From: Mucilaginibacter boryungensis
GTDB lineage: Bacteria; Bacteroidota; Bacteroidia; Sphingobacteriales; Sphingobacteriaceae
Direction: 5' to 3'
Length of the DNA stretch: 64,000 bases
NCBI RefSeq assembly: GCF_015221995.1
Contig: NZ_JADFFM010000001.1
Location: 1,612,001-1,676,000, forward strand
The position numbers and the translations under genes are program-made. Under the pieces are notes generated by a model that ran no database searches, was not told the DNA's origin, and saw nothing but the letters and a program-made list of their open reading frames with translations. Positions 10,361 through 61,411 of the stretch are shown one piece after another. How positions within the stretch are numbered: position 1 is the first letter of the stretch; every line of letters starts with the position of its first letter.

Positions 10361-11452
10361 TTACTGCAACTTCACCACCTTGTTCCTCATCCAATGATCG
10401 GCCAATACCAGTGCAGCCATAGCTTCAACGATAGGCACAGCACGTGGTACAACGCATGGGTCATGGCGGCCTTTGCCGGATATTTCGGCCGCATTGCCTT
10501 CGCTGTCTACCGTTTGCTGGTTATGCATAATGGTAGCCACGGGTTTAAACGCCACGCGGAATTCTAAAGGCATACCATTACTGATACCGCCCTGTATACC
10601 ACCGGAAAAATTAGTAAGTGTGTGGATGCCTTCATCGCCGGAAAGGAAAATATCATTATGTTCAGACCCCAGCATTTCGCTGCCACTAAAGCCCGAACCA
10701 AATTCAAAACCATGTACAGCGTTGATGCTCAGCATAGCCTTGCCTAAATCTGCATGCAACTTATCAAATACCGGGTCGCCTAAACCTACCGGGCAATTTT
10801 TTATATAACAGCTTACTTTGCCGCCAACCGTATCGCCGGCTTTGCGTACGCCATCAATAAATTCAATCATTTCTTCGGCTGTAGCCGGGTCGGCGCAGCG
10901 GACAATGTTCTTCTCGCGCTCGGCAATAAAGTCGTTAGCATCGTCTATAAATACGTTTGGTGCGTCAATTTTACCAACACTGCTCACATGGGCTACAATT
11001 TCAATGCCCTGGGTTTTTAATAACAGTTTAGCCAGCGCTCCTGCCGCTACACGCGCCGCGGTTTCCCGGGCCGATGATCGTCCGCCACCCCGATGGTCAC
11101 GGATGCCGTATTTGGTTTGATAGGTATAATCCGCATGCGATGGACGGAATACATTAGTGTTATGGCTGTAATCTTTAGACCGCTGATCCTCGTTAGGGAT
11201 GATCATGGCAATAGGTGTACCCGTAGTTTTACCTTCAAACACACCCGAAAGTATTTTTACTGTATCGCTTTCTTTGCGCTGGGTAGTAATTTTACTCTGG
11301 CCAGGTTTGCGTTTATCCAGTTCGCCCTGTATGTATTCCAGGTCAACGTCCAGTTGCGCGGGGCAGCCATCAATAATTACCCCGATAGCCTCGCCATGCG
11401 ATTCGCCAAATGTTGTTATCCTGAATAATTGCCCGAATGAATTGCCAGCCAT
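10361..11452 (-). CDS. aroC: Chorismate synthase
   Basis: 363 residues. Family signatures are visible: TFGESHG near the N-terminus, the Arg/Gly stretch [19 protein letters not shown] that binds FMN and substrate, and [15 protein letters not shown] towards the C-terminus. It removes phosphate from 5-enolpyruvylshikimate 3-phosphate to make chorismate, using reduced FMN, in the cytoplasm. It is the last common step to Phe, Tyr and Trp. aroA lies upstream on the same strand, about 280 bases away across two palindromic repeats, so co-transcription is possible but uncertain. Confidence 0.95.
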
Positions 11453-45400: not shown

Positions 45401-45539
45401 CCAGTTCATCGGTAACTTTGCCAGACACCTTTAATATCCGATCCTGTGCGAATAGACTGGCGCTTAGCATACATGTTAAAAATAGTAAAGAGAGCAACCT
45501 CAGATTACATCTGAGACAGTGTAGTAATTCTTTAATCAT
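42417..45539 (-). CDS. SusC/RagA-type TonB-dependent outer-membrane transporter (sialidase locus)
   Basis: 1040 residues with a signal peptide (LSASLFAQ). A carboxypeptidase-D-like regulatory domain (about 35-115, GPVVGASVRIVGT) precedes the plug (LIIIDGVPDRELNDVDPEDIE, then VYGTRGANGVILI) and the 22-strand barrel, which ends in a C-terminal aromatic (VRVTF). It imports oligosaccharides across the outer membrane using TonB energy. It leads the five-gene leftward unit. Its promoter appears to differ from those of the other two susC genes: a TACGTTTG box is present but the shared activator site is not. Confidence 0.95.
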   Translation of the reverse strand: MIKELLHCLRCNLRLLSLLFLTCMLSASLFAQDRILKVSGKVTDELDGPVVGASVRIVGTRQGVVTNPDGKYSISVNPTDSLEFSFIGYKTVRFAIRNRVDLNVKLEAIAGGLNEVSIVGYGQQKKISVVGAQSTLEAKDLKLPVRDIASTLGGRIAGIITTSRGGGPGQDNNGFLVRGVSTFGTSSRTPLIIIDGVPDRELNDVDPEDIESFTVLKDAVSTAVYGTRGANGVILINTKKGVAGKPAINVEVNRGVTQFVKVPKLLDAPTWMTLYNEALTNRGRQPLYTQANIDLHAAGTDPDLAPNVNWYDQIFRKAGSTQRANLNISGGSDKSTYYISVGYYDETGLLKENPDDQKYNVNSYYKRYNATINIGVNVTSTTKLDLGIGSIIDSRNGPNGGTNTDALNNLFAQALRVPPHIMPGVYSNGLYSQYPGGFSSPNKIAFDLGSQNIYTATIRPNIKLKQDLGMITKGLSVSGLFSFDIYSDGSNAIGIADPSYYATGRDANGNLIMQVTKDATGAYSYSSARSSTRRMYSEASVNYTRSYGKSDVSALLLFNQSEYIDGNATTFTAAVPFRNRGLTGRATYGYNNRYFLEGNFGYTGSENFSPDKRYGFFPSVGMGYIVSNEGFYKSIKKVMPYFKVRYSYGLTGNGAFGTRFLYLTQLSKTTATGYQFGTPSSLSPAYSGYAESQIATDPSWETSYRHNLGIEMGFFNNDLKLVTELFREVRKGILRADQTIPGISGFGGVNPTRNIGIVLNKGIDATLTYNHNLGNRKWINIAGTFTYNNNTNIQDGLPPQKYPWMEWKGKEVDAKTLYIADGLFKDQAEIDASARQTGDIRPGDIKYKDLNNDGVIDANDVARINVSGTPKMMYGLNLTFGYKAFDIGAFIQGTGKVWLSYGLGDGTQPFSAGPISAALMTMVADRWTVDNPNPNAFYPRLNSNQDPNSNYLNSTWWLKPSGFVRLKSAEIGYTLDQPSMKRYGIKKMRIFLNGTNLITLSKWKYWDPELNDTGTSSNNYSRGESYPNIKAYNIGVRVTF

Positions 45540-45811: not shown

Positions 45812-48277
45812 TTAAACAAATGCCGCACCATTCGAGGCGATGCTAAAGACTTTTGACTCATCCTCTATTTTTTTGATCGCCTCAACTGTTTTTAGAAATG
45901 AATCGGGTGTTACCGAGATGCTATCTATACCTTCTTCTACCAGAAACTGCGCGAAATCAGGATAGTCTGATGGGCCCTGCCCGCAAATCCCTACTTTAAC
46001 ACCAGCCTTTTTTGCCGCACTGATCAGTTGTGATACCATACTTTTTACCGCCTCATTACGCTCGTTATATAGCCCGGCCACTAAAGCCGAATCGCGGTCA
46101 AGGCCAAGTACTAATTGTGTAAGATCATTCGAACCAATAGAAAACCCGTCGATATGCCTGGCAAACTGATCGGCAAGGATAACATTAGATGGTACTTCGG
46201 CCATCAAATATACTTCCAGTTCGTTCTGGCCACGTACCAGGCCATATTCGCGCATGGTATCATAAACCATCATTAATTCACCAACGGTGCGGCAAAATGG
46301 AATCATTACCACTACATTTTTTAATCCCATTACTTCGCGCACTTTTTTTATGGCTTTGCATTCCATACCAAAAGCCGCCCTATAACTGCTTGAATAATAA
46401 CGGGAAGCCCCACGCCAGCCTATCATTGGGTTTTCTTCCAGCGGCTCAAAATAACTGCCGCCAGGCATGCTCCGGTACTCGTTTGTTTTGAAATCAGAAA
46501 AACGGACAATTACCTTTTGCGAATAAAACGCCGCAGCTATTTTAGCAACACCGTACGATAACTTTTCGATAAAATAAGTTTCTCCATCGGCATAACCTTT
46601 AATGGTGTTTTCAATAAGCAATGTCAAGGCTTCATCATTCAGTTCCTTGTGCTGTAATAAAGCCTGGGGATGGATCTTAATATAATTATTAATAATAAAC
46701 TCTTCCCGGGCCAGGCCCACCCCGGAATGCGGATACCCGGCTAATTTAAAAGCCACATCCGGTGATGCTACATTCATCATTACCGGCGTGGCTATTTCAG
46801 GAAGCAGGCTCAAATCATACTCCTGCATGGTAAAATGGATTTCGCCCGCGTAAATAATTCCGCTGTCGCCTTCCGCGCAGGATGCCGTAATTAATTGTCC
46901 GTTGCTTAATAACTCGGTTGCATTACCGCAGCCTACAATGGCCGGCACCCCCAACTCGCGCGCTACTATAGCTGCATGACAGGTGCGGCCGCCCTTATTT
47001 GTAATTATGGCTGCTGCTTTTTTCATCAACGGTTCCCAGTCTGGGTCAGTCATGTCGGTCACCAGTACATCGCCGGTTTTAAAACCTACCTGCGCTAACG
47101 CGGCGGTATCTATGTTTTGCAACAGGTGTACACGTCCCGATGCAATTTTATCGCCTACGGCAACGCCCTGTAATATTATTTGTCCGGCACGGCGGTCATC
47201 TTCAATAGTGTAAATATTTACTGTATGTGCTGCCTTGCGCGAATGTATGGTTTCAGGCCTGGCCTGGACAATATAAAGCTGGCCGCTTTCGCCATCCAGC
47301 GCCCACTCAACATCCATGGGGCACTGCTTGCCTTTCAGGCGGGTATAATATTTTTCAATAGACGCTACCCAGCCAGCCAGTTGCAGTGCCATATCATCTG
47401 TTAAACAAAACGATTCCCTTTCTGCTGCCGATGTTGGGACGATCTTTACTCTTTCTTCATCTGCTTCACCATATATCATCTTATTATCTTTGGTGCCCAG
47501 TTTCTTTTCAATTAATGGCTTTACACCGCGTTGGCCCAGTAGGGGTTTAAATACTGTAAATTCATCAGGTTTTACAGCGCCTTGCACCACCATTTCGCCA
47601 AGGCCAAACGAGCCATTGATGATCACAACATCTTTAAAACCACTTTCGGTATCCAGCGAAAAGGCCACACCAGACGCGCCAATATCAGACCGCACCATTT
47701 TTTGTACGCAAACTGAAAGGCCGATCAGAAAATCGTCATAACCAAAGCTTTTTCGGTAACTAATGGCCCGGTCTGTAAATAATGAAGCAAAACAATTCCG
47801 TATGGCGTTAAGCAGGCCATCTAAGCCCGATATATTTAAATAGGTATCCTGCTGACCGGCAAAGGAAGCATCAGGCAAATCCTCGGCAGTAGCCGACGAA
47901 CGTACAGCAACATCTACGTCAGTCTTGTTATAGTATTGGCATAAATTTGTGTACGCTGCTGAAATTTGATCAGTAAGGGTTTGGGAAAAAGCACCATTAC
48001 GTATCATTTCACGTATGTTTTGCCCGCAATATTTAAGTTGCGCCAAGTCATCTACATTTGTCATTGCAATTAAGTCCTTAATCGCATTGTCAAGCATATT
48101 ATGTTTTAGGAAACTATAATATGCATCGGCTGTGATAATAAATCCGTAGGGAATGTTAATTCCCAGCACATCTAAATGTTGCAACATTTGGCCTAACGAG
48201 GCATTTTTGCCACCTACTCTGTCAATGTCGTGTATGCCGGCTTCATCAAGTTTTAAAATATAGTTAGCTATTTTCAT
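45812..48277 (-). CDS. ppsA: Phosphoenolpyruvate synthase
   Basis: 821 residues. The N-terminal ATP-grasp domain (VGGKNASLGQML, AVRSSATAEDLPDASFAGQQ) binds ATP; the phosphohistidine domain has GGRTCHAAIVARELG with His434; the C-terminal TIM barrel carries GICGQGPSD with the catalytic Cys. It converts pyruvate and ATP to PEP, AMP and phosphate, the entry to gluconeogenesis. Its place between a sialidase locus and an aldolase-containing regulon makes sense because sialic acid lyase and HpcH-type aldolases both yield pyruvate. It is divergent from the AraC gene. A clean promoter (TTTG, 15 bases, TATTTTTG) precedes it. Confidence 0.92.
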   Translation of the reverse strand: MKIANYILKLDEAGIHDIDRVGGKNASLGQMLQHLDVLGINIPYGFIITADAYYSFLKHNMLDNAIKDLIAMTNVDDLAQLKYCGQNIREMIRNGAFSQTLTDQISAAYTNLCQYYNKTDVDVAVRSSATAEDLPDASFAGQQDTYLNISGLDGLLNAIRNCFASLFTDRAISYRKSFGYDDFLIGLSVCVQKMVRSDIGASGVAFSLDTESGFKDVVIINGSFGLGEMVVQGAVKPDEFTVFKPLLGQRGVKPLIEKKLGTKDNKMIYGEADEERVKIVPTSAAERESFCLTDDMALQLAGWVASIEKYYTRLKGKQCPMDVEWALDGESGQLYIVQARPETIHSRKAAHTVNIYTIEDDRRAGQIILQGVAVGDKIASGRVHLLQNIDTAALAQVGFKTGDVLVTDMTDPDWEPLMKKAAAIITNKGGRTCHAAIVARELGVPAIVGCGNATELLSNGQLITASCAEGDSGIIYAGEIHFTMQEYDLSLLPEIATPVMMNVASPDVAFKLAGYPHSGVGLAREEFIINNYIKIHPQALLQHKELNDEALTLLIENTIKGYADGETYFIEKLSYGVAKIAAAFYSQKVIVRFSDFKTNEYRSMPGGSYFEPLEENPMIGWRGASRYYSSSYRAAFGMECKAIKKVREVMGLKNVVVMIPFCRTVGELMMVYDTMREYGLVRGQNELEVYLMAEVPSNVILADQFARHIDGFSIGSNDLTQLVLGLDRDSALVAGLYNERNEAVKSMVSQLISAAKKAGVKVGICGQGPSDYPDFAQFLVEEGIDSISVTPDSFLKTVEAIKKIEDESKVFSIASNGAAFV

Positions 48278-48320: not shown

Positions 48321-48367
48321 TCAGGCTTATCAATTCAAAAAATGATACTATATTAACCATTTTAACA

Positions 48368-48402: not shown

Positions 48403-49293
48403 ATGAAAGCAAGATTAAAAAAACTTGACCATTCAGGAAGTTCTTCTTTCCATGTTGAACTTGCGGGGCATTATCATTCCTATAACGAATTACATTATCA
48501 TCCCGAAATTGAAATTATTTACGTTGTTGAAGGGCAGGGTACCTTATTGGTTGGTGACAAAATTGAACCGGTAGCCACCGGGTGTTTATTAATGATCGGT
48601 GCAAATTTGCCGCATTTGTTCCGATTTGACTCACATACTTTTGAGCACCCGTTATTTAAACAGGGCAGAGTGGATTTACCCTTGAAACTGCTTACGCTGC
48701 ATTTTAACCCTGAAATTTTAGGCGAGCAGTTTATTAATTTACCCGAAAATGAATTTATGCAAACTGTTATACGCAACGCAGGCCATGCCCAACAGTTTTA
48801 TGGTGAATTACGGGGTCAATTGCTTGCGATGCTAAATACGATGCTGCAGGCAAAACCACACGAACGGCTGATATTGTTGATACAATTGATGGCAATTATA
48901 GCAACTGGTAAAGACTTTCGCTTTTTAAACCCAGGGATAAAACAGGTAGCTTATAACCTAACCGATGAAACCCGGCTGACTAAAATATATTTGTACACAT
49001 TAAATAATTTTCATCGCACTATTACTTTAAAAGAGATAGCGGCTACTATTTATATGTGCCCTAATTCTTTTTGCCGGTATTTTAAATCAAGGGTACATAA
49101 AAGCTATTTTGATTTTTTGCTTGAGGTGAGAATAAACCACGCCCGCAAACTATTAAAAGAAACGGATTACAGTATGGTTATTGTAAGTTACGAATCGGGT
49201 TTCCCAAATCTTTCAAACTTTAACCGTTATTTTAAAGCTATTACAGGAAAAACCCCGCTGGCTTGCCGCAAAGAATACAGGCAGTTTTTTTAG
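48403..49293 (+). CDS. AraC family transcriptional regulator
   Basis: 296 residues. The N-terminal cupin sensor domain (ELHYHPEIEIIYVVEGQGTL, then LPHLF) would bind a small ligand, probably a sugar or sugar acid. The C-terminal 100 residues carry the two helix-turn-helix units of AraC proteins, with ITLKEIAATIYMCPNSFCRYF and the signature VSYESGFPNLSNFNRYFKAITG. It is divergent from ppsA and sits at the left end of the region holding four promoters with 21-bp-spaced direct half-sites, the spacing used by AraC-type dimers. It is the leading candidate activator of those units; this is inference. Confidence 0.9.
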   Translation: MKARLKKLDHSGSSSFHVELAGHYHSYNELHYHPEIEIIYVVEGQGTLLVGDKIEPVATGCLLMIGANLPHLFRFDSHTFEHPLFKQGRVDLPLKLLTLHFNPEILGEQFINLPENEFMQTVIRNAGHAQQFYGELRGQLLAMLNTMLQAKPHERLILLIQLMAIIATGKDFRFLNPGIKQVAYNLTDETRLTKIYLYTLNNFHRTITLKEIAATIYMCPNSFCRYFKSRVHKSYFDFLLEVRINHARKLLKETDYSMVIVSYESGFPNLSNFNRYFKAITGKTPLACRKEYRQFF

Positions 49294-49381: not shown

Positions 49382-49441
49382 AATAGTATTAGCATACTAT
49401 ATAAACGTAGTGGAACTCTGTTAGCAATACCTATAAATTTG
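49382..49441 (+). promoter_or_regulatory. Two-box activator site and promoter of the esterase operon
   Basis: Half-site AATAGTA (49382-49388), second half-site AAACGTA (49403-49409) 21 bases on, and -7 box TAAATTTG (49434-49441) 31 bases after that. The second half-site continues into GTAGTGGAA, one base different from GTAGTAGAA at the two susC promoters. The first half-site is also part of a perfect palindrome ATAGTAT-TAGC-ATACTAT (49383-49400). Confidence 0.65.
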
Positions 49442-49490
49442 ATATCACTTACTGCTATAATGCTCAACAGTAAAGAAAATCAATTTTAAA

Positions 49491-50462
49491 ATGCCTGCTG
49501 TGAATAAAAGTAACAGAGTTATATATTTCCTTATTATCACTTGTGTTACGGTAAGTAATCTTTGGCCGGCAAATGCAAAAGCCGTACCTGCCGATTCATT
49601 AACCAATTATATCCAAGCATTTTGGAAAACAACTAAACAGCGCCTGGCAGCCGAACCTATAGAGGCCGTTGTTACCCCAACCAAAGAAGCATTGCCATAT
49701 CATACTTATAAAGTTAAGCTGCGTGGATTAAATGGGGTATATTTTTATGTGATGATGTCTGTACCAGTGCAGGGTGAGGCCCCGACAAAACCCTGGCCGG
49801 TAATTATTACTACCTGTGGTTATGGCGTTAGTGCAGGGCAGGGCATAATGCTGGCCGAGTGCCAGCGCGGGTACGTGATTTTACAGGTATACCCACGTGG
49901 GCAGGGCATATCTGATGAGTTTTTTAAGATAACCGGCGACAAGCTTACCATGAATGGTGAAAATCCGGACGGGGCATATTATCAGGGTTGTTACGCTGAT
50001 ATGATACGCACCATAGATTTTGCCATGACACAACCGGATATTGATCCTGATCGTGTGGCATTAATGTCAACCAGTCAGGGTGGTGGTATTTGCCTGGCTG
50101 TAGCATCGCTTGACCCGCGTGTTAAAGCAGTGGTGGCACATGTGCCGTTTCTTTGCAATATGCGCCTTGCGGCTACCACGCCATCACTTGTAAAAACGAT
50201 TTTGGACAAACACAAAAACAGCGATACTTACCTGGCAACCCTGAATTACTTTGACCCATATTATTTGGTACAAAACATACATTGCCCGGTATTAATGAGC
50301 GCAGGTGGTAAGGATATGATGTGTCCCCAATCTACCATAGAGTCTGTATATGATATATTAAAGTGCAAAAAGAAGCTGAAGGTCTATCCAAACTTAGCGC
50401 ATACCACTTGCCTCGACTTTTATAACGAGTGGTGGCCCTGGGTTAAAAAACAATTGAAATGA
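49491..50462 (+). CDS. Secreted acetyl esterase of the acetyl-xylan esterase (CE7-like) type
   Basis: 323 residues with a signal peptide (cleavage near ANAKA, residue 31). The alpha/beta-hydrolase triad is placed at Ser195 (STSQGGG), Asp275 (GGKDMMCP) and His304 (NLAHTTC), and the CE7 hallmark RGQ is at 136-138. Enzymes of the family remove acetyl groups from xylo- and cephalosporin-type substrates. Its promoter has the two-box activator site. An SGNH hydrolase (38 bases on) and a PhyH-type dioxygenase follow on the same strand, probably as one operon. Confidence 0.8.
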   Translation: MPAVNKSNRVIYFLIITCVTVSNLWPANAKAVPADSLTNYIQAFWKTTKQRLAAEPIEAVVTPTKEALPYHTYKVKLRGLNGVYFYVMMSVPVQGEAPTKPWPVIITTCGYGVSAGQGIMLAECQRGYVILQVYPRGQGISDEFFKITGDKLTMNGENPDGAYYQGCYADMIRTIDFAMTQPDIDPDRVALMSTSQGGGICLAVASLDPRVKAVVAHVPFLCNMRLAATTPSLVKTILDKHKNSDTYLATLNYFDPYYLVQNIHCPVLMSAGGKDMMCPQSTIESVYDILKCKKKLKVYPNLAHTTCLDFYNEWWPWVKKQLK

Positions 50463-50500
50463 GCACTAATTAGCTGGTTTTATATAATCGATATAATCTA

Positions 50501-51187
50501 ATGAATATAACTGCACACCGAACATTACTATTAGGCATATGCCTTGTATTAATAACTATTTCAGGTTATTCACAAACAGTTACCTGGGATAGCACTTACA
50601 GGCCAGCCATATATGCAGGTAAGGTTGGACAGTTTAAATCTTTCCCTAAATCAACAAGCGACATCATTTTTCTGGGTAACAGCATTATGACCTATACCGA
50701 CTGGAATGAACTTTTAGGATTATCAACCGCTAAGAACCGGGGTATCCCTGGCGATATGACTTTTGGCGTATTGGAACGATTGGGTAATGTTATTGAAGGT
50801 AAGCCAGCTAAAATTTTTATACTGATAGGGATTAATGATATTACCCGTAATGTGCCTGATAGTGTGATCCTTAATAATTATAAAAAGATCATTTATAGGA
50901 TCAAAGCAGGGTCACCGAGGACGAGGATCTATTTCCATACCCTGCTGCCGGTTAACGATACTTATACTGCGTTAAAAGGGAAAACAGGCCATATTGTAAG
51001 TGTTAACAGCAAATTGAAAAAGTTAGCTGTTGAGGAGAAAATAACGTTGATTGATCTTTATCCGAATTTTTTAGATCAAACCGGGATGTTAGACCCTAAA
51101 TACACGTTTGACGGCCTGCACCTGAACGAACTGGGATATTTTAAATGGGCCGGTATTTTAAAAGAGGGAAAGTACCTTACCAATTGA
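50501..51187 (+). CDS. Secreted SGNH/GDSL hydrolase
   Basis: 228 residues with a signal peptide (ISGYSQ, residue 25). The four SGNH blocks are visible: FLGNSIM with Ser61 (Asn in place of the usual Asp of GDSI), the Gly of the second block, GIND (110-113), and the C-terminal FDGLHLNELG with Asp204 and His207. Such proteins are mostly sugar O-acetylesterases. With the CE7-like esterase next to it, this suggests a heavily acetylated glycan as the substrate of the regulon. Confidence 0.82.
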   Translation: MNITAHRTLLLGICLVLITISGYSQTVTWDSTYRPAIYAGKVGQFKSFPKSTSDIIFLGNSIMTYTDWNELLGLSTAKNRGIPGDMTFGVLERLGNVIEGKPAKIFILIGINDITRNVPDSVILNNYKKIIYRIKAGSPRTRIYFHTLLPVNDTYTALKGKTGHIVSVNSKLKKLAVEEKITLIDLYPNFLDQTGMLDPKYTFDGLHLNELGYFKWAGILKEGKYLTN

Positions 51188-51241
51188 CCCTGTTACACAT
51201 AGATTAAGAAAGCATTTATATATTTTAATAGCCAATAAGCA

Positions 51242-51994
51242 ATGGAAAATAAAGACTCCTTAAAAGCAGCATTTGAAAAAGATGGTTTTGTGTTTATCCC
51301 CGGTTTTTTGAGTATTGAAGAAACGGAGACAATAAGGCAAAATTTTAACAGGGTAATTACAGATGTTTTGCCCAATATGCCTGCAACCAAAGTGTTTTAT
51401 GAAGACAAAAATGATGCATCAACCCTTAAACAGGTAATGGACATTCATGCACACGATAATTTTTTTAATACGGTTTTATTTGATAGTAAGTTTAAAGAAT
51501 TGGCCGAGCTTTTACTCGGCGATAAAGTTATCGGTAAGAACCTGGAATATTTTAATAAACCCCTTTTAATAGGCAAGCCAACGCCCCCGCATCAGGATGG
51601 GTATTATTTTATGTTAGACCCATCAATAGCGGTAACTATGTGGATGGCACTTGAACCAGCAGATGAAGAAAATGGCTGTGTTAAATACGTTAAAGGCTCG
51701 CATTTAAAAGGGATGCGGCCGCATGGGCGCACAAAAACATTGGGCTTCTCTCAAGGCATTACCGATTTTGGGACAGACGAGGATATGCAGAACGAAATAG
51801 CTTTCCCGGCAAAACCAGGCGACTTATTAGTACATCATTCTTTAACTATCCACAGGGCAAATGGCAATACAAGCGCTAATCGCACACGCAAAGCTTTAGG
51901 ATTGATATATTTTGGCGAATCGGCCCGGGAAGATGTTACAGCAAAAAAAGCCTACCAGGATAAACTGCAACAGGAAATGGTTGCTAATAATTAG
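51242..51994 (+). CDS. Phytanoyl-CoA dioxygenase family (PhyH) 2-oxoglutarate/Fe(II) oxygenase
   Basis: 250 residues, cytoplasmic. The iron triad is likely His117 and Asp119 (PPHQDGYYF) with His204 (SLTIHRANGN), and a nearby Arg (SANRTRKAL) would bind 2-oxoglutarate. PhyH proteins hydroxylate many small molecules, not only fatty acyl-CoA. It lies 54 bases after the SGNH gene with no visible promoter between them, so it is probably the third gene of the esterase operon. The role beside sugar esterases is unknown; oxidation of a sugar-derived or methylated compound is possible. Confidence 0.83.
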   Translation: MENKDSLKAAFEKDGFVFIPGFLSIEETETIRQNFNRVITDVLPNMPATKVFYEDKNDASTLKQVMDIHAHDNFFNTVLFDSKFKELAELLLGDKVIGKNLEYFNKPLLIGKPTPPHQDGYYFMLDPSIAVTMWMALEPADEENGCVKYVKGSHLKGMRPHGRTKTLGFSQGITDFGTDEDMQNEIAFPAKPGDLLVHHSLTIHRANGNTSANRTRKALGLIYFGESAREDVTAKKAYQDKLQQEMVANN

Positions 51995-52082
51995 AAATTA
52001 GATAAATGGTAATTAATACAATTTAACCGGAAAATCTGTTCCAACTGGCCATTTATTAAGTATGTTTAATGCATCGAATGAA

Positions 52083-52142
52083 TATAGTATCAGTATTGTA
52101 AATAAAAGTACGACTAATTAATATCCGCAAAAGATACATTTG
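52083..52142 (+). promoter_or_regulatory. Two-box activator site and promoter of the MFS-aldolase operon
   Basis: Half-site TATAGTA (52083-52089), second half-site AAAAGTA (52104-52110) 21 bases on, and -7 box TACATTTG (52135-52142) 31 bases after that. The half-sites are weaker matches than at the susC promoters but the spacing is identical. Confidence 0.6.
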
Positions 52143-52173
52143 AATACAATAATTACACACAATAAATCTTTCT

Positions 52174-53442
52174 ATGGACGCTTCCCTAACCAATGTAAAC
52201 ACATCGCCAGGTAAGGCAATGCCCTTTAAAGCCTGGCTGGTAGTAGGTTTACTTTGCGTGGTTGGCTGTTTGAATTATCTCGACCGTAACATGATCACCA
52301 CCATGCGTGGATCAATTGTTACCTCCATCCCTATGACCGATGCACAGTTTGGGCTGCTGACATCGGTTTTTTTATGGGTTTATGGTTTTTTAAGCCCTAT
52401 AGCAGGTTTTTTAGCTGATAGATATAGCCGTAGCCGCGTAATTATCGCCAGCCTGTTTATCTGGTCGGGCGTTACTTTTCTTACCGCACATGCAACCAGT
52501 TTTCAAGGGCTGTTAGTCAGCCGGGCTTTAATGGGGATAAGCGAGGCTTGTTATTTGCCGGCTGCTTTAGCTTTGATAGCCGACTATCATAAAGGCAGTA
52601 CCCGGTCGTTGGCCATTGGTATTCATTTGGCCGGCGTAATGATAGGATCGAGTCTTGGGTTTTTAGGTGGCTGGATTGCCCAGGACAGTCATTGGAATAA
52701 TGCTTTCACAATTTTTGGTGGCATTGGTATAGTTTATTCGGGGATACTGTTTTTCTTTCTGCGCGATGCCAAAACTAAAGCAACCACGGTTGACGCGGGC
52801 ACCGATATTCTTAAGCCCAAATTTTTCCCCGCACTTAAAGATCTGTTCTTAAAACGGTCATTTATAATGCTGTTTATATTTTGGGGGCTTTTAGGTATTG
52901 TGGGTTGGATGATAGTTGGGTGGCTGCCTACATATTATAAAGAACACTTTAACATATCCCAGGCCAAAGCCGGGGCTTTTGCTACTGCTTATATGTACCC
53001 TTTTGGCATGGCCGGGGTAATTATAGGCGGCATTTTGGCCGACTGGTGGAGCCGTAAAAACGCTAACGCGCGAATTTTAGTACCCATTATTGGTCTTTGC
53101 GCAGCCGCGCCGGCAGTATTTATTGCCGGCAGCACCAGTGCCATATTTTTAGCCTTAGCCGGGTTTATAACCTACGCTTTTGCCCGGGTGTTTAGCGATA
53201 CTAACTTAATGCCTATTTTAACTATGGTGGCCAATAAACGCTATGTGGCTACCGGCTATGGTGTGTTGAATATGTTTGCCTGTGTTATTGGTGGTTTAGG
53301 TAATTATGCTACTGGCGTGCTGCGCGATCAGCATGTAAGTATGACCCTGCTATTCAGGATGGCATCTGTTTTAATGATCGTATGTGTGGGGCTGCTATAT
53401 GTAGTGAAAAAGGATGTTGAAAAATCTGCTAAAGCTCAATAA
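52174..53442 (+). CDS. MFS transporter of the anion:cation symporter type
   Basis: 422 residues with twelve membrane helices. LNYLDRNMITT in the first helix and GFLADRYSRSRVI in the loop after helix 2 are typical of the ACS branch, which carries hexuronates, galactonate and other organic acids with protons. It would import a sugar acid or an oligosaccharide-derived acid across the inner membrane. It leads an operon with the HEAT-repeat protein (2-base gap), HpcH-type aldolase and aldo-keto reductase. The promoter carries the two-box activator site. Confidence 0.88.
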   Translation: MDASLTNVNTSPGKAMPFKAWLVVGLLCVVGCLNYLDRNMITTMRGSIVTSIPMTDAQFGLLTSVFLWVYGFLSPIAGFLADRYSRSRVIIASLFIWSGVTFLTAHATSFQGLLVSRALMGISEACYLPAALALIADYHKGSTRSLAIGIHLAGVMIGSSLGFLGGWIAQDSHWNNAFTIFGGIGIVYSGILFFFLRDAKTKATTVDAGTDILKPKFFPALKDLFLKRSFIMLFIFWGLLGIVGWMIVGWLPTYYKEHFNISQAKAGAFATAYMYPFGMAGVIIGGILADWWSRKNANARILVPIIGLCAAAPAVFIAGSTSAIFLALAGFITYAFARVFSDTNLMPILTMVANKRYVATGYGVLNMFACVIGGLGNYATGVLRDQHVSMTLLFRMASVLMIVCVGLLYVVKKDVEKSAKAQ

Positions 53443-53444
53443 CA

Positions 53445-54398
53445 ATGTTGTTATATCTGTTAACCGGCATTATTAATATCATAAATCTGTCTGCAATGCA
53501 AACTACTACTACTGCCGACCAAAATAAAAAGGCCCTGGCCGAACTTAATTTAGTATTGGCCCAACGCCAGAAATTTATAAAAGTGCACGCGGCAGAATAC
53601 CTGATCTGGACTGGTCATGCCCAGGTGGCACTGAAAGAATTTTTACAGCAGGATAAACTTTACCATAACGAGCCCAAATACCGCATAACCATTTGGCGGG
53701 TGCTGGAACAGGCCGATACCGACCCTGTGCGCAAAAAAAAGTGGCTGAATAACATTTATGAAGCATATAAAGACATGAACGGTCCCGACAGGACTCATGC
53801 CACTGAAACGCTGGCTAAGCTTAAACAGCCTGTCGCAACCCTTTTCCCTGAAATTACGGCAAAAACTATGGCAGCGGCCGACCGCAATCTTGCCACATAT
53901 GCTTTATGGGCCGATTCATATGGATCAGAAACCCGAATGGTAGCAAACAGGGAAAAGCTGTTGAATATGGCATTGACTGATACGAACGTTATCATCAGAA
54001 GGATCAGCACATTTGTTTTACGCAAAGAGCAGGGATTAAGTATGCCGCAATGGGAGCGCTTGGTTACGGCAGCTATGGCGATGAGCAAGACGGACGAGTT
54101 ATATGTAACGTTTTTGTCTACCGCATTGGTTACGGCTCCGGCTGGCGCCAGTACACACCAACTTGCATTAATTGATGCTTTAATTACTTCAAATATCAAA
54201 CCCTACAGCGTGGCGGTGCGTACAGAACTTGCATTGGCTTTAGCTGAAAAGGGGACAAAAAAACATCTGAACCTTTTAATGGGGATGTTAGAAAATAAAG
54301 ATTGCGAGGGGATATACGACCCGGCATCGGATGAAGGGGCAGATTTGCGCGCGGCGGCAGCTTTTGCTATATTGAAAATTAACAGCAGGAAACACTAA
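53445..54398 (+). CDS. HEAT-repeat-like protein of unknown function
   Basis: 317 residues if the ATG at 53445 is used; the ATG at 53496 is an alternative that removes a short hydrophobic start (LLYLLTGIINIINL), which might otherwise act as a signal or anchor. The rest is alpha-helical with HEAT/ARM-like repeats (for example HAAEYLIWTGHAQVALKEFL near the start and VRTELALALAEKGTKKHLNLL near the end). Similar helical-repeat proteins are sometimes encoded with sulfatases or oxidoreductases. It lies two bases after the MFS gene and 14 before the aldolase. It may scaffold the pathway; no catalytic motif is visible. Confidence 0.6.
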   Translation: MLLYLLTGIINIINLSAMQTTTTADQNKKALAELNLVLAQRQKFIKVHAAEYLIWTGHAQVALKEFLQQDKLYHNEPKYRITIWRVLEQADTDPVRKKKWLNNIYEAYKDMNGPDRTHATETLAKLKQPVATLFPEITAKTMAAADRNLATYALWADSYGSETRMVANREKLLNMALTDTNVIIRRISTFVLRKEQGLSMPQWERLVTAAMAMSKTDELYVTFLSTALVTAPAGASTHQLALIDALITSNIKPYSVAVRTELALALAEKGTKKHLNLLMGMLENKDCEGIYDPASDEGADLRAAAAFAILKINSRKH

Positions 54399-54412
54399 TA
54401 TATCAGCTACAA

Positions 54413-55231
54413 ATGAAAATGAGAGAAAGCCGGGTACTGGCAAAATTAAAGGCAGGCGGTGCAGCGAGTTGTTTAAAGGTAAACTTAGGCGATGGCCAGG
54501 CGGCAGAAATTGCAGCCATATGCGGTTTTGATTGCCTCTGGATAGACCAGGAGCATTTGGCCCAGGATTGGTCGGTGCTTAATTCGCAGATATGGGCGGC
54601 CAAATCGCGCAATGTTGATGTGATGGTGCGTGTGCCGCGTGGTAGTTACAGTGGTTATGTAAAACCATTGGAAATGGACGCTGCCGGCATATTAGTGCCG
54701 CATATTATGAATTTAGAAGAAGCCAAACAAGTGGTGCAAATGACCCGTTTCCACCCCATCGGCCGCCGTGCTATCGATGGTGGCAGTGCCGATGGCGCTT
54801 ATACCAATATGGATTTTTCTGACTATCTGAAAGATTCGAACGAGCAAAAATTTGTGGTGCTACAAATTGAGGACCCTGAAGTATTACCCGATATTGAAGC
54901 CATAGCCGCTTTAGATGGCGTCGATATGCTGTTTTTTGGCCCCGGCGACTTTAGTCAGGGTATTGGTCATCCCGGCGAATGGAACCACCCGCAATTACTG
55001 GAAGCCCGCAAGCTGGTAGCCCAGGTGGCTAACAAATATGGCAAGTTTGCCGCCACATCGGGCGGAATAGATAGCCTGGATAGCTTTTTAGAAATGGGCT
55101 ATAAGTTTGTAAATGTTGGCGCGGATGTGGTTGGATTGAGTAGTTACTGCAAAACCCTTGTCGACAGGTTTGATAAATCAGCTGCCGAAAAAATTATCGG
55201 CGCCACCATTAATCCGGGTAAGCCCTACTAA
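54413..55231 (+). CDS. HpcH/HpaI family class II aldolase
   Basis: 272 residues. The TIM barrel carries the family residues in order: WIDQEHL (base and metal side chain), FHPIGRRAI with the Arg that binds pyruvate, LQIEDPEV with a metal-binding Glu, and FFGPGDFSQG with the metal-binding Asp. Enzymes of the family split 2-oxo-3-deoxy (or 4-hydroxy-2-oxo) acids into pyruvate and an aldehyde. The MFS carrier for acids upstream and the aldo-keto reductase five bases downstream (which could reduce the aldehyde) fit a short pathway for a sugar acid. The exact substrate is not readable. Confidence 0.87.
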   Translation: MKMRESRVLAKLKAGGAASCLKVNLGDGQAAEIAAICGFDCLWIDQEHLAQDWSVLNSQIWAAKSRNVDVMVRVPRGSYSGYVKPLEMDAAGILVPHIMNLEEAKQVVQMTRFHPIGRRAIDGGSADGAYTNMDFSDYLKDSNEQKFVVLQIEDPEVLPDIEAIAALDGVDMLFFGPGDFSQGIGHPGEWNHPQLLEARKLVAQVANKYGKFAATSGGIDSLDSFLEMGYKFVNVGADVVGLSSYCKTLVDRFDKSAAEKIIGATINPGKPY

Positions 55232-55236
55232 TAATT

Positions 55237-56190
55237 ATGAAAAAAAGGGTTTTAGGCAAAACCGGTATAGCGGTTTCTGAAATTGCATTTGGCGGTGTAG
55301 AAATTGGTATACCTTATGGTATAGGGGTTAATAGCGAAGCGGATATGCTTTCGCGTGATGAAGCCGTTAGCTTATTGCATGAAGCGCTGGATAAAGGGAT
55401 CAATTTTTTTGATACTGCCCGCTTATACGGCGAAAGTGAAGCCATAATGGGCGAAGCTTTTCACGATCGCCGGGACAGGTTGGTGCTTGCTACTAAATGC
55501 AAACATTTTAAAAATAATGATGGGCAGATACCATCTTATCAAGTGCTAAAAAAGATAATTGAATCGTCACTTGAAGAAAGTCTGGGGCTTTTAAAGACTG
55601 ATTATGTAGACGTTTTTATGCTTCATCAAGCCGATTTAGAAATACTGGCTAATGATGATGTAAAAGAGATTTTTACCAAACTAAAAGATACAGGTAAAGT
55701 ACGGGCCATAGGTGCGTCTACTTATACCTCGGCCGAAACTAAGCGTGCCATAGAAAAAGGTTGGGATGTTATACAACTGCCTTTTAACCTGATGGATCAG
55801 CAACAGGCGGATAATTTTAATTTTGCTGAAGAAAAAGGTACCGGTATTGTTGTCCGTTCTGTATTAATGAAAGGTTTGCTGAGTGATAAAGGCAGAGGCT
55901 TGCACCCTGCATTGCAACAAGTAGAGCAGCACATTGGTAAGTATCGTGAATTACTGACAGATGAAATTCCTGAAATATCAACCCTGGCTACAAAATTTGC
56001 TTTATCATTTAAACAGGTATCAGCGGTTTTGGTAGGCATCGACCGTTCAGAATATTTAAATAGAGCATTACATTCTGTTGATGGTAGGTTATTAAATGCA
56101 GCTGAGCTTTCAGAATCTAAAGCATTAGTTTACCCCGATCCGTCATTCCTTGATTTGCCCCAATGGGACCGGTTGGGGTGGTTGAAATAA
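55237..56190 (+). CDS. Aldo/keto reductase
   Basis: 317 residues. The catalytic tetrad is placed at Asp59 and Tyr64 (FDTARLYGESE), Lys87 (ATKCKHF) and the His of FMLHQAD. The C-terminal region has the phosphate-binding loop of NADPH-using members. It may reduce the aldehyde made by the aldolase just upstream, or oxidise a sugar such as L-fucose or galactose to a lactone, as related enzymes do. It is the last gene of the operon, closed by a good terminator. Confidence 0.86.
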   Translation: MKKRVLGKTGIAVSEIAFGGVEIGIPYGIGVNSEADMLSRDEAVSLLHEALDKGINFFDTARLYGESEAIMGEAFHDRRDRLVLATKCKHFKNNDGQIPSYQVLKKIIESSLEESLGLLKTDYVDVFMLHQADLEILANDDVKEIFTKLKDTGKVRAIGASTYTSAETKRAIEKGWDVIQLPFNLMDQQQADNFNFAEEKGTGIVVRSVLMKGLLSDKGRGLHPALQQVEQHIGKYRELLTDEIPEISTLATKFALSFKQVSAVLVGIDRSEYLNRALHSVDGRLLNAAELSESKALVYPDPSFLDLPQWDRLGWLK

Positions 56191-56218
56191 TAAATTTATT
56201 AGCTATTACTATGGAAGG

Positions 56219-56250
56219 ATGAGCCCGCTTTTGTGGGCTCATTTTTTTTT
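56219..56250 (+). terminator. Rho-independent terminator after the aldolase operon
   Basis: ATGAGCCC (56219-56226) pairs with GGGCTCAT (56235-56242), followed by eight T. Confidence 0.9.
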
Positions 56251-56288
56251 ATGGAGTGTGTGATAATATTATGGTTCCGATAATGAAA

Positions 56289-56348
56289 AATAGTACCATA
56301 AATGAATTTAATAGTAGTAGAAATGCCTTTTTCTAAGCTATAGATTTG
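56289..56348 (+). promoter_or_regulatory. Two-box activator site and promoter of the second susC-susD pair
   Basis: AATAGTA (56289-56295) and AATAGTA (56310-56316), 21 bases apart, then -7 box TAGATTTG (56341-56348) 31 bases after the second. The surrounding 39 bases (56284-56322) are almost identical to those at 61347-61385 before the next susC. No -33 TTTG is present, in keeping with a need for an activator. Confidence 0.7.
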
Positions 56349-56400
56349 ATAATTGCTAATAGCAAACTCTCTACATCTCATTTATTTAAACCAATAATTA

Positions 56401-59400
56401 ATGAAAAAAAGCTTTACTAAAACTAATGGATTTTACAAAAAATGTACTGGTATTTTACTGCTGCTTTTTTGCTTAATTTCCACAGCAACATTTGCAGCCA
56501 AGCCTGTGAATGTTACTGCATTGCCACCACAAACTATTACTGGTATAGTTAAAGACCAAAATGGGAATACCTTACCTGGGGTTACTATTAAGGTAAAAGA
56601 TAAAACGGTTGGCACCCTTACAGATGCTACAGGCAAGTTTAAGCTTACCGTACCGGCTGGCAGCCATATCATCATAGTCAGCTTTATTGGATATATCCCG
56701 CAGGAAATCGATATCAATGGCAGGTCTGCATTTGATATTACACTGGTTGACGATGTTTCAAAACTAAAAGAAGTAGTGGTAGTGGGTTACGGCTCGCAAT
56801 CGCGCGAAAAGTTAACCACTTCGGTATCTAAGCTGGATGCCCGGGTACTTAATAATGTCACCTATACTAATGTGGGCTCGGCCTTAGAGGGGAATATCTC
56901 AGGTTTGCAGGTGCAATCAACAGGCGGCGGTCAGCCGGGTGCTTCGCCAAGGATAGTTTTACGTGGCGGCACTTCAATTACTAACCCTAATGGTGCATCG
57001 CCGTTATACATTGTTGATGGCATTATCAGGCCCAATGGTTTAAACGATATCAATTCCGCGTCTATCGAATCTGTACAGGTATTAAAAGATGCCGCATCGA
57101 CAGCCATATATGGTGCACGCGGGTCAAACGGCGTGGTAATTGTAACCACCCGTGCGGGTAAGCCCAATCAAAACAGGGTAAGTTATACTTTTAACGGTTC
57201 GGCGGGTAATGCCAGCCGTTTGCTGCAATATTCCAACGCGCACGATTATATTTACTGGAACAGGTTAGGCGTACAGGCAGCTTCTTTTTATCAATCAAAT
57301 CCGAATACGTATTTAGCCAAACTTTCACAAACCTCGGCTTATGGCACAGCTAACGACTTAACTAATAATACACCCTATACAACTCAGTATTTAACAGCAG
57401 CTAATCAGTTTAAGCTATCGCAGGGCTGGCAAAGTATGCCCGACCCGATAGACCCAACCAAAACCATTATTTACGATGATAACGATTTTCAGAAAACACT
57501 TTATCGTACAGGTAAAACTAACGACCATTATTTGGATATATCAGGTGGGGGAGATAAGGCGACATTTTATGCGGGCTTAGGCTACACAAATGCGCAAGGG
57601 GCTGCTATTGAAACTAACTACAAACGTTTAAGCATTAACTTCAACGGCAGCTATAAAGTAAATGATGATCTGAGCTTTTTTGGCCGTTTAGCTTACACTA
57701 ATCGCACTTGGAAAACCGTGGCCAGCCTTGCCAATGAATTTTACCGTTCCGCATCCCTGCCACATTCTGCTAAACTTACATTTGAGGATGGCACTTATGC
57801 GCCGGGGCAAAACAGTTCAATAGGTAACCCATTATACTATTATACAGGCCCTTATTCTCCCCAAGGTAAATCAGGAGATGAGGTGACCACTATTTCATTA
57901 GGCTCGAAATGGAATATTATTAAAGGTTTATCTTTCGACCCGCAGGTATCCCTATTTCGCCAAAACACACCATCTTACTCTTTCCAGCCCGCGGCTTATT
58001 TAAATGGCATATTAAGCCCGATTGTTACTACACGGAACCAATCAAGTTCGGCTCCTACTGTAAGACAATATCAGGCCGATGCGGTGCTTACCTATGTTAA
58101 TACCTTCGCTTCTAAACATAACCTGGAAGTTAAAGGTGGGTTTTCACACTATTACCGGGAAAATACCACATTTACGGTCAATGCTTCTGGTGCGCCAACA
58201 GACCTGATCACCACATTAAATTCAGGCGCTACCGCAACGTCAATAACAAGTTCTGTTTCTCCGTTAGTGATACAGAGTTTATTTTCCCGGGTTAACTATG
58301 ATTATGACGGCAAATACCTGTTGTCGGCTAACGTACGTTATGACGGTGCCTCTAACTTGGGCAACGATCATAAATTTGGTTTTTTTCCGGGTATTTCAGT
58401 AGGATGGAATGTTCATAAGGAGGAATTCTTTAACAATTTAATATCCGACAAAATACTACAGCTAAAATTACGTGCAAGTTACGGTGTTAATGGTAACATT
58501 AGTGGCTTGGGCGATTTTCAACCACAAGGCAGCTTTAGTACAACTACCGGTACAACGTTAAATTATGCAGGGTTGCCCATAGTAGTTCCAGGTAACATTC
58601 CAAATCAGGACTTGAAATGGGAGCAATCAAAAACTTTCGATATAGGTGCCGACATAGGTTTATTTAATGGTAAAGTAGGGATTGTAGTTGATTATTATAA
58701 TCGCAGAACTGATGACCTGCTGACAACGGTAAGCTTACCAGCTTCTACCGGCTTCACAAGTATATTTACCAATAACGGTACTTTACAAAACCGGGGATAT
58801 GAGCTTGAATTGAATGTTGATGTATTGCCATCACAATCTAAGCTAAAATGGAATACTTCATTTAATATTGCGCATACAAGCCGCAAAATCCTAAAATTGC
58901 CCAATAACGGTGTTTTAAATAACCGTCAGGGAGGCTTCCAGGTTTGGGACCCGAACACCGGGACCTACGTATATATGGGAGGCTTGCAGGAAGGCGGGCG
59001 CCCGGGCGATCTTTACGCTTTTCATGAGTTAGGTGTTTATCCTACCGATGCCGCTGCAGCCAACGCGCCTATTGATAACCAGGCCCCATCAGCAATAAAA
59101 AAACGCTTTGGTGGCGATGTAATTTGGGATGATCTGGATAAAAATGGCATTATTGACGGCCGCGACTTAGTGTATGTGGGTAATCCTTATCCCACATTGT
59201 CTGGCGGGTTTAACAACTATTTTACCTACAAAAGCTTCGGTTTAAATATTCGCACCGACTTTACAACAGGTAACACCATATGGAATTATCCGGCTGTTAT
59301 TGCTAATGCCCAGGCCCAGGGCGATGCTTCGCCATTGCAAAGCTACCTGGATAAAATGTGGAAAGCCCAGGGCGATGTAACTATGGTGCCCAGATATACC

Positions 59401-59697
59401 TGGCAGGACCAGCCTTACAATATATTCAGAGGATCGGTTAACGGGGTTTCGCTTGGCAATTCTACCTATTATGAAAAAGGGGATTTTCTGTGTTTAAGAG
59501 AAGTTACCCTAAGTTATAAGCTTCCGGCACAATTAACACGCAAAATTGGGCTTAGCGGGGCCAGGGTTAATTTTACCGGCTATAACTTACATTATTTTAC
59601 TTCATATACTGGTTTGAATCCGGAAGACGGCGGTATGGATAATGGTCATTATCCAATTGTCAGGACATTTTCACTGGGTGTTAATATTACCCTATAA
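56401..59697 (+). CDS. SusC/RagA-type TonB-dependent transporter (second locus)
   Basis: 1098 residues with a signal peptide (ISTATFAAK). The CarboxypepD_reg domain (about 43-120, ITGIVKDQNGNTLPGV) is followed by a TonB-box-like KEVVVVGYG, the plug (SPLYIVDGIIRPNGL, AIYGARGSNGVVIV) and the barrel, ending in LGVNITL. It brings oligosaccharides across the outer membrane. SusD follows after 11 bases. Its promoter shares the activator site with the esterase and MFS operons, so its glycan is presumably the source of their substrates. Confidence 0.95.
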   Translation: MKKSFTKTNGFYKKCTGILLLLFCLISTATFAAKPVNVTALPPQTITGIVKDQNGNTLPGVTIKVKDKTVGTLTDATGKFKLTVPAGSHIIIVSFIGYIPQEIDINGRSAFDITLVDDVSKLKEVVVVGYGSQSREKLTTSVSKLDARVLNNVTYTNVGSALEGNISGLQVQSTGGGQPGASPRIVLRGGTSITNPNGASPLYIVDGIIRPNGLNDINSASIESVQVLKDAASTAIYGARGSNGVVIVTTRAGKPNQNRVSYTFNGSAGNASRLLQYSNAHDYIYWNRLGVQAASFYQSNPNTYLAKLSQTSAYGTANDLTNNTPYTTQYLTAANQFKLSQGWQSMPDPIDPTKTIIYDDNDFQKTLYRTGKTNDHYLDISGGGDKATFYAGLGYTNAQGAAIETNYKRLSINFNGSYKVNDDLSFFGRLAYTNRTWKTVASLANEFYRSASLPHSAKLTFEDGTYAPGQNSSIGNPLYYYTGPYSPQGKSGDEVTTISLGSKWNIIKGLSFDPQVSLFRQNTPSYSFQPAAYLNGILSPIVTTRNQSSSAPTVRQYQADAVLTYVNTFASKHNLEVKGGFSHYYRENTTFTVNASGAPTDLITTLNSGATATSITSSVSPLVIQSLFSRVNYDYDGKYLLSANVRYDGASNLGNDHKFGFFPGISVGWNVHKEEFFNNLISDKILQLKLRASYGVNGNISGLGDFQPQGSFSTTTGTTLNYAGLPIVVPGNIPNQDLKWEQSKTFDIGADIGLFNGKVGIVVDYYNRRTDDLLTTVSLPASTGFTSIFTNNGTLQNRGYELELNVDVLPSQSKLKWNTSFNIAHTSRKILKLPNNGVLNNRQGGFQVWDPNTGTYVYMGGLQEGGRPGDLYAFHELGVYPTDAAAANAPIDNQAPSAIKKRFGGDVIWDDLDKNGIIDGRDLVYVGNPYPTLSGGFNNYFTYKSFGLNIRTDFTTGNTIWNYPAVIANAQAQGDASPLQSYLDKMWKAQGDVTMVPRYTWQDQPYNIFRGSVNGVSLGNSTYYEKGDFLCLREVTLSYKLPAQLTRKIGLSGARVNFTGYNLHYFTSYTGLNPEDGGMDNGHYPIVRTFSLGVNITL

Positions 59698-59708
59698 ACT
59701 TTACCAAC

Positions 59709-61205
59709 ATGAAAAGATCAAAATATATATTATTGCTTGCAGCGGGACTAATTTCTGTTGCATCATGCCGCAAAGCTATAGATGTAGACCCCATTAGTAC
59801 AATTACAGCTACTTCGTATTATAAAACCCCCGATGATGTTACGGGTGGGATAAGGGGTATGTATGCATCGCTGCGCATTGCCGCCACAAGTGATATGTTT
59901 TTTATGGGCGAAGGCAGAAGCGATGTTTTAACATCCGCAACAGCGGGCACCACCGGGCTTGATAAATACTATCTTAATACGCTTAATGCAACTAACCCAG
60001 GGCCTAACTGGCAACAGTTTTATACAACTATAAATGCAGCCAACCTGCTAATAAAATATATCCCTGCCATTAATTTTACATCGCAAACAGTTAGGGATAA
60101 TGCTTTGGCGCAAGCTTATACTATGCGCGCATTTATTTACTTTGTGCTGGTAAGAACATGGGGCGAAGTACCCATCAGAACCCAGCCGACCGAATCGTAT
60201 GATCCGGCCTCGGTACAAGTTGCCAAATCATCTGTTCAGGATGTATTTAAACTGATAAAAGCGGATATAGATATGGCCATATCGTTATATCCTAATGTTA
60301 CACCAGATGCGAACAGGGCACAATGGAGTAAGCCTGCTGCCGAGGCGCTAAAAGGCGATGTTTATTTATGGACAGGTAAAATGTTAAGCGGCGGCGCTAC
60401 CGATTTTACCACCGCACTTACTGCGCTTAACGATATTTCAACAACTGATTTTACTTTATTACCCAATTATAGCGACATTTTTAGCTATACAAACAAGGGC
60501 AATAAAGAAGAATTATTTGCAGTACGCTTCCAGCAAAGTGACTTTACAACCGGCAATGGGAACAATTACTGGTCAAACATGTACATTACTAATTTGGGGG
60601 CATCAACCGCGCCCAAAGGTGTTTCGGCTGCTTCAATAGCTATTATTGGTACACAGGGCAACGGTAACAACGGCGCTAATATTATGCAAATTACACAAGC
60701 CGTAAGAAACCAGTTTACTACAGATGACCAAAGGCGCGCGGGTACTTTTTATGAGATCTATAATAATGATGGTACATATCTTACATCAATAACCACTAAA
60801 GGGGCCGGTACAGTAATAGGTGGCTCGCGGAATTTTTATACCGATGTAATGATATATCGTTATGCCGACGTTTTATTAATGAAGGCCGAAGCAAAAAACG
60901 CACTGGGGCAAGATCCGTCAGCCGAAATGATTGCAGTTAGGCAGCGCGCCTATGGCAGCAATTACAGCAGCCATGTTTTTGTAAACGGGACCCAGGCCGC
61001 AAACGATGCTGCTATACTGAAAGAAAGATTGCTAGAGCTTGCTACTGAAGGTAAGCGCTGGTGGGATTTAGTACGCTTTGGACAGGCGTTTAACCTGGTG
61101 CCGTCATTGGCTGGCAAACAAAGCCAAACATATTTATTATTGTTTCCAGTAGGCTCAACTATACGCAGCCTTGAACCTTTGGTGACAGAAAATACGGGGT
61201 GGTAA
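59709..61205 (+). CDS. SusD/RagB-type glycan-binding lipoprotein (second locus)
   Basis: 498 residues with a lipoprotein signal (ISVASCRK, Cys21). SusD landmarks are AQAYTMRAFIYFVLVRTWGEVPIRT in pieces along the N-terminal TPR region and ERLLELATEGKRWWDLVRFG near the C-terminus. It caps the preceding SusC. A terminator closes the pair; no glycosidase follows, so this pair relies on enzymes encoded elsewhere, including the esterases at 49-51 kb. Confidence 0.94.
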   Translation: MKRSKYILLLAAGLISVASCRKAIDVDPISTITATSYYKTPDDVTGGIRGMYASLRIAATSDMFFMGEGRSDVLTSATAGTTGLDKYYLNTLNATNPGPNWQQFYTTINAANLLIKYIPAINFTSQTVRDNALAQAYTMRAFIYFVLVRTWGEVPIRTQPTESYDPASVQVAKSSVQDVFKLIKADIDMAISLYPNVTPDANRAQWSKPAAEALKGDVYLWTGKMLSGGATDFTTALTALNDISTTDFTLLPNYSDIFSYTNKGNKEELFAVRFQQSDFTTGNGNNYWSNMYITNLGASTAPKGVSAASIAIIGTQGNGNNGANIMQITQAVRNQFTTDDQRRAGTFYEIYNNDGTYLTSITTKGAGTVIGGSRNFYTDVMIYRYADVLLMKAEAKNALGQDPSAEMIAVRQRAYGSNYSSHVFVNGTQAANDAAILKERLLELATEGKRWWDLVRFGQAFNLVPSLAGKQSQTYLLLFPVGSTIRSLEPLVTENTGW

Positions 61206-61244
61206 ATTGCATATTTAGTTGGTTAATTTAATAAATAAGGTTGG

Positions 61245-61276
61245 GCGGGCTCCATATATTGGGCCCGCTTTTTTTT
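61245..61276 (+). terminator. Rho-independent terminator after susD
   Basis: GCGGGCTC (61245-61252) pairs with GGGCCCGC (61261-61268), one G-T pair, followed by eight T. Confidence 0.88.
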
Positions 61277-61351
61277 GCTATGCAAATTCCAATTAATCCC
61301 CTTACTGCCTATAAATAATTAGATATCAGCGTTTTTATTACGGTTGTGAAA

Positions 61352-61411
61352 AATAGTACCATAAATCTAATTAATAGTAGTAGAAGCCAGTTTTAATTAA
61401 AATTAAATTTG
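61352..61411 (+). promoter_or_regulatory. Two-box activator site and promoter of the third susC
   Basis: AATAGTA (61352-61358) and AATAGTA (61373-61379), 21 bases apart, then -7 box TAAATTTG (61404-61411) 31 bases after the second. The sequence around the boxes is nearly the same as at 56284-56322, while the flanks are not. Confidence 0.7.

Follow-up and report, generated by a model that had tools for sequence, protein, structure and literature searches.

A shared promoter element and a candidate AraC-type activator define a predicted catabolic regulon in Mucilaginibacter boryungensis

The window considered here is a stretch of 64,000 nucleotides from Mucilaginibacter boryungensis, corresponding to C1:1612001–1676000 of a 4.88-Mb genome. 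Its right-hand part contains a gene for an AraC-family protein, termed AraC1, two enzyme operons, and two SusC loci, and each of the last four is preceded by a promoter with paired direct half-sites, P1 to P4 (Table 1). SusD1, encoded under P3, is NanU-like by NCBIfam with a score below the family cut-off, and the unit under P4 has the gene order susC2-susD2-DUF5017-fasciclin-BNR. A further SusC gene of the window, at 42417–45539, was considered and rejected as a member of this group; on inspection by eye, its promoter combines an ordinary TTTG with TACGTTTG and lacks paired half-sites.

The gene cluster continues past the window with a second SusCD pair, several BNR/sialidase-like proteins, a sulfatase, and two GH36-type genes, together with genes for a sugar-acid dehydratase, SDRs, a GlcD-type oxidase, RidA, an aminotransferase, and others. 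The best NCBIfam match of the cluster FAA hydrolase is 2,4-didehydro-3-deoxy-L-rhamnonate hydrolase, at 356 bits against a cut-off of 500. The gene content suggests that the cluster imports a sulfated or acylated glycan and employs a non-phosphorylative deoxysugar-acid route. The short RidA (Ribonuc_L-PSP) gene, at L030:16381–16770, is the first gene of an operon that also encodes a 3HCDH protein, an aminotransferase, and an M19 dipeptidase, and it is kept in the congeners G087, G154, and G167 and in Chitinophaga alhagiae. A riboswitch or other RNA element in a 450-bp leader before the 3HCDH gene was also considered and dismissed: the stretch is the short RidA gene, and it has no Rfam match.

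Table 1. Features of the locus and its extension. Positions are those of the window unless a contig or locus label precedes them.
Feature	Position	Strand	Description
ppsA-like gene (phosphoenolpyruvate synthase)	45812–48277	−	named from reading the sequence
Conserved element GGTTAATATAGTATCATTT	48340–48358	−	in the ppsA-AraC1 gap; near-invariant in 7 genomes
AraC1	48403–49293	+	cupin plus HTH_18 regulator; Pfam AraC_binding and HTH_18
P1	49376–49441	+	half-site 1 AATAGTA 49382–49388; half-site 2 AAACGTA 49403–49409; -7 box TAAATTTG 49434–49441
Operon under P1	49491–51994	+	AXE1 esterase, GDSL hydrolase, PhyH dioxygenase
P2	52077–52142	+	half-site 1 TATAGTA 52083–52089; half-site 2 AAAAGTA 52104–52110; -7 box TACATTTG 52135–52142
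Operon under P2	52174–56190	+	MFS transporter, 317-aa protein of unknown family, HpcH/HpaI aldolase, aldo-keto reductase
P3	56283–56348	+	half-sites both AATAGTA, 56289–56295 and 56310–56316; -7 box TAGATTTG 56341–56348
Operon under P3	56401–61205	+	SusC1 and SusD1
P4	61346–61411	+	half-sites both AATAGTA, 61352–61358 and 61373–61379; -7 box TAAATTTG 61404–61411
SusC2 under P4	61483–64000	+	start codon from reading; gene runs past the window edge
Additional site	L029:8166		before mandelate-racemase-type dehydratase gene at 8272; beyond the right edge of the window
Additional site	L030:16266		before RidA/3HCDH/aminotransferase operon, RidA ATG 16381; beyond the right edge of the window
Additional site	L031:8613		before GH36-type gene, ATG 8702 by reading; beyond the right edge of the window
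AraC2	C1:1708329–1709186	−	inside the cluster, ~32 kb beyond the window

A sequence-only reading of the window had assigned two half-sites and a -7 box to each of P1 to P4, and all twelve of these coordinates are correct to the base. The offsets that it reported, 21 bp between the half-sites and 31 bp from the second half-site to the -7 box, are present at all four promoters, and the half-sites, described as AATAGTA or close variants, depart from this motif by one or two bases at most. Its remark that a clear -33 TTTG is lacking also agrees with the sequence, in that no TTTG lies 22–26 bp ahead of the -7 boxes of P1 to P4.

The pattern of half-sites and -7 box from that reading, searched with up to three mismatches through the 4.88-Mb genome, has eight matches on the forward strand and none on the reverse strand, and a reversed-pattern control gave three and two matches on the two strands in the same search. 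Seven of the eight matches lie within one 60-kb stretch, C1:1661382–1720672, as do all five matches with two mismatches or fewer. Of the 575 spacing pairs possible, (21,31) occurs most often in the 64.7-kb cluster, where it accounts for 7 of 48 matches. A match with three mismatches outside the cluster, at C1:592700, was rejected as being at chance level (profile-scan E 0.78). The profile is sequence-only and was built from 14 aligned sites of G087, G154, and G167, with the sites of the own genome left out. Because these training sites had themselves been picked with the same pattern, at up to four mismatches, the profile scan tests ranking and flanking conservation and does not amount to fresh motif discovery. 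When the whole own genome is scanned, the top seven matches are exactly the seven cluster sites, with E values from 6.2e-11 to 1.4e-5. P3 is the best match in the genome (E 6.2e-11), followed within the window by P1 (49377–49443, E 1.6e-8), P4 (E 4.7e-8), and P2 (E 2.0e-7), all values being genome-wide. The eighth match, C1:1698096 (E 0.02), precedes a MocA-type oxidoreductase gene and is again part of the cluster, and the best match outside the cluster is partial (E 0.06).

The shared promoter element is far beyond chance. The earlier count of four sites was too low, as three further clear sites and one probable site (E 0.02) lie past the right edge of the window. Judged from these sequences, the predicted regulon is real and larger than four sites, with at least seven, all before cluster operons; C1:1698096 is a probable eighth member. 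A weak partial site at L030:8544 (AATAATACCATTAATCAG...), before an F5/8-BNR gene, has a genome-wide E of 0.95 and is a possible ninth, and the regulon probably totals eight or nine sites spread over about 60 kb.

The seven cluster sites share one architecture. Each has a -7 TAnnTTTG of the primary-sigma, sigma-ABfr type, none has a -33 TTTG 22–26 bp ahead of the -7 box, and the place of the -33 element is covered by the proximal half-site. The half-sites are spaced by 21 bp at all seven and at 14 sites from other genomes. The combined consensus reads TGAAArATAGTAYYATaAAT, then AAAGTAgYAnnAA, about 17 unconserved bases, and TAnnTTTG. In G087, the corresponding operons carry the site: L077:1396 precedes the operon orthologous to the P1 operon, and L077:4048 and L077:8328 are the orthologous sites for P2 and P4. 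The susC1D1 pair of G087 lies ~0.93 Mb from the cluster, yet it has a perfect site (L081:9581, 0 mismatches). In G087, G154, and G167, six to eight profile matches are found per genome at E ≤0.1, and the strong ones (E <1e-8) all precede cluster genes.

A second AraC-family protein, AraC2, is encoded inside the cluster. It comprises 286 residues and matches the Pfam family HTH_18 with an E value of 4.5e-21; at a threshold of 1e-3, neither a cupin nor an AraC_binding match is found in it, and it aligns over ~270 residues (33% identity) with AraC1, which has AraC_binding. A sensor kinase or receiver domain was not found in AraC2, the only domains detected being those of the AraC HTH. AraC2 orthologs are present in G087 (93% identity), G154 (63%), and G167 (62%), each within a counterpart of the cluster in which the element precedes the operons. 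Outside the genus, orthologs with 63–66% identity are surrounded by cluster genes in Chitinophaga alhagiae, Niabella aurantiaca, and Parapedobacter indicus, and the element was found beside each when these loci were searched (E 4.4e-10, 5.5e-5, and 2e-5, respectively). In P. indicus, the cluster contains two AraC2-like copies (64% and 63%; L098:5806–6663 and 10454–11311), separated by ~4 kb.

AraC1 has a different genomic setting. Six orthologs, with 53–72% identity, were found among 150 congeners, and in all six genomes they are divergent from ppsA, itself 70–80% identical; no cluster gene lies beside any of the six within the stretches read around them. The conserved element GGTTAATATAGTATCATTT in the ppsA-AraC1 gap is a probable AraC1 site, and its TATAGTA lies 51–52 bp upstream of the -7 box of ppsA in those genomes in which the distance was measured. 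The ppsA promoter has no conserved second half-site, and in GGTTAATATAGTATCATTT the AraC half-sites may overlap as an inverted repeat instead of forming a direct one. Since its orthologs are tied to ppsA and have a conserved element of their own, AraC1 is best read as the regulator of the ppsA locus; most likely it controls the divergent ppsA and not the regulon described here.

The sequence-only reading had proposed that two SusC loci and two enzyme operons form one regulon under AraC1. The single regulon with these four members and the AraC-type direct-repeat layout stand, whereas the choice of regulator is probably wrong; AraC2, encoded past the window edge, was out of sight of that reading. 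AraC1 is of the right family, its gene ends 88 bp before P1, and its probable site in the ppsA promoter has ATAGTATCAT, 51–52 bp from the -7 box and thus at nearly the distance of half-site 1. However, its orthologs accompany ppsA and not the cluster. Convincing sites are missing from five genomes that encode AraC1 and lack AraC2 (no profile match below E 0.01). In G154 and G167, where the cluster, the element, and AraC2 are all present, there is no ortholog of AraC1, and its paralogs there reach at most 34% identity. The AraC1 ortholog of G087 (C1:1.57 Mb) is widely separated from the cluster (C1:5.55 Mb). On this phyletic pattern and synteny, AraC1 was rejected as the main regulator, activation of all sites by it is very improbable, and the closeness of its gene to P1 is best read as a matter of position. 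Half-site sequence alone cannot name the protein, because the probable AraC1 site contains ATAGTATCAT and the gene of a distant AraC protein is preceded by AATAGTACCAT half-sites.

As AraC1 seems to use a similar half-site, cross-talk at the regulon sites is possible. A stronger form of this idea would have AraC2 act as the substrate-specific activator and AraC1, on the same half-sites, couple the cluster to the gluconeogenic state through its link with ppsA. The half-sites of the two proteins are similar, their second recognition helices look alike by eye, and the products of the predicted pathway would join metabolism near pyruvate or lactate; the lack of a conserved second half-site at ppsA and the full retention of the element in genomes without AraC1 argue against such sharing, which we regard as unlikely. 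It is also conceivable that the bound protein represses, the proximal half-site blocking RNA polymerase at the -33 region until a ligand releases the protein. The -33 position does lie under the proximal half-site, but a -33 TTTG, which would make a promoter strong unaided, is absent from all of them, and the exact 31-bp phasing at ~20 sites is a requirement for an activator but not for a blocker; repression is accordingly a slim prospect.

AraC2, whose presence the element tracks across the genomes compared, is the likely regulator, acting as a tandem-bound, class II-style activator of one catabolic regulon. It would sense a product of the imported substrate and would occupy, as a dimer in tandem, a pair of direct half-sites that are separated by two helical turns and follow the consensus ATAGTAYYATaAAT, then AAAGTAgYAnnAA. 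The AraC2-bound proximal half-site would occupy the place of the -33 TTTG, and AraC2 would substitute for the absent -33 contact and recruit RNA polymerase with the Bacteroidota primary sigma to TAnnTTTG. Because the proximal half-site lies over the -33 place and the -33 element is absent, activation is probably class II-style. In Bacteroides, the sigma-ABfr consensus comprises TAnnTTTG and a TTTG near -33, and in Flavobacterium johnsoniae the -33 motif was not found (PMC7366714); as it is undetected there too, the missing -33 TTTG carries little weight.

AraC-type proteins bind with two subunits to half-sites that lie on the same face of the DNA. At the E. coli araBAD promoter, the I1-I2 half-sites are spaced by 21 bp and overlap the -35 region; the proximal half-site of the present element lies ~8 bp nearer the core promoter. 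The sigma factor and promoter type of araBAD also differ from the TAnnTTTG type. Similar to the proposed AraC2 arrangement, E. coli AraC uses two neighbouring half-sites, I1 and I2, both of which are occupied when the protein is in its active state (PMC3711423). The hybrid two-component systems (HTCS) of Bacteroides, with their PUL regulons, likewise have an AraC-type HTH, and their sites, which lie ahead of susCD and catabolic operons, are direct repeats with a mean spacing of 21 bp (PMC3878776). In an HTCS, however, a single polypeptide contains the sensor kinase, the receiver, and the AraC HTH, whereas AraC2 is a short, one-component protein, and a constant interval of 31 bp to the -7 box is not among the features stated for HTCS sites in the parts of that source consulted (PMC3878776). 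Nothing specific on this motif or on AraC regulons in this lineage was found in the literature.

The same 21/31 geometry occurs at a second kind of locus within the genus. In eight congeners (L087–L089, L091–L095), an AraC gene that precedes a DUF983-like gene carries AATAGTACCAT half-sites in the 21/31 layout before its own TAnnTTTG, which suggests that this AraC protein autoactivates. It differs from AraC2 in having only ~22–24% identity to it and in that its site precedes the regulator's own gene rather than a catabolic cluster. One-component AraC proteins of the Bacteroidota, including paralogs ~23% identical, may tentatively be proposed to share a layout of activated promoters, in which an ATAGTAYYA pair with fixed 21/31 spacing replaces the -33 element; this is a plausible reading that we do not favor outright. 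A direct-repeat scan around other AraC paralogs gave an excess at 21 bp. It was set aside as independent proof of a generic layout, since many examples resemble coding or simple repeats and the loci of the strong examples had been chosen by motif. If the proposal is true, AraC-activated promoters would be readable directly from sequence across the phylum.

For an environmental lineage of the Bacteroidota, these results provide a precise and testable map of a PUL-type regulon, which comprises seven strong sites of fixed geometry and a single candidate activator, and they correct the tempting assignment to the adjacent regulator as probably wrong. Because the element ranks the seven sites first in a 4.88-Mb genome, such regulons can be extended and unlinked members found, as for susC1D1 in G087. 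The position of the proximal half-site over the -33 place gives an entry point for studying how an activator may help RNA polymerase at promoters without a clear -33 element.
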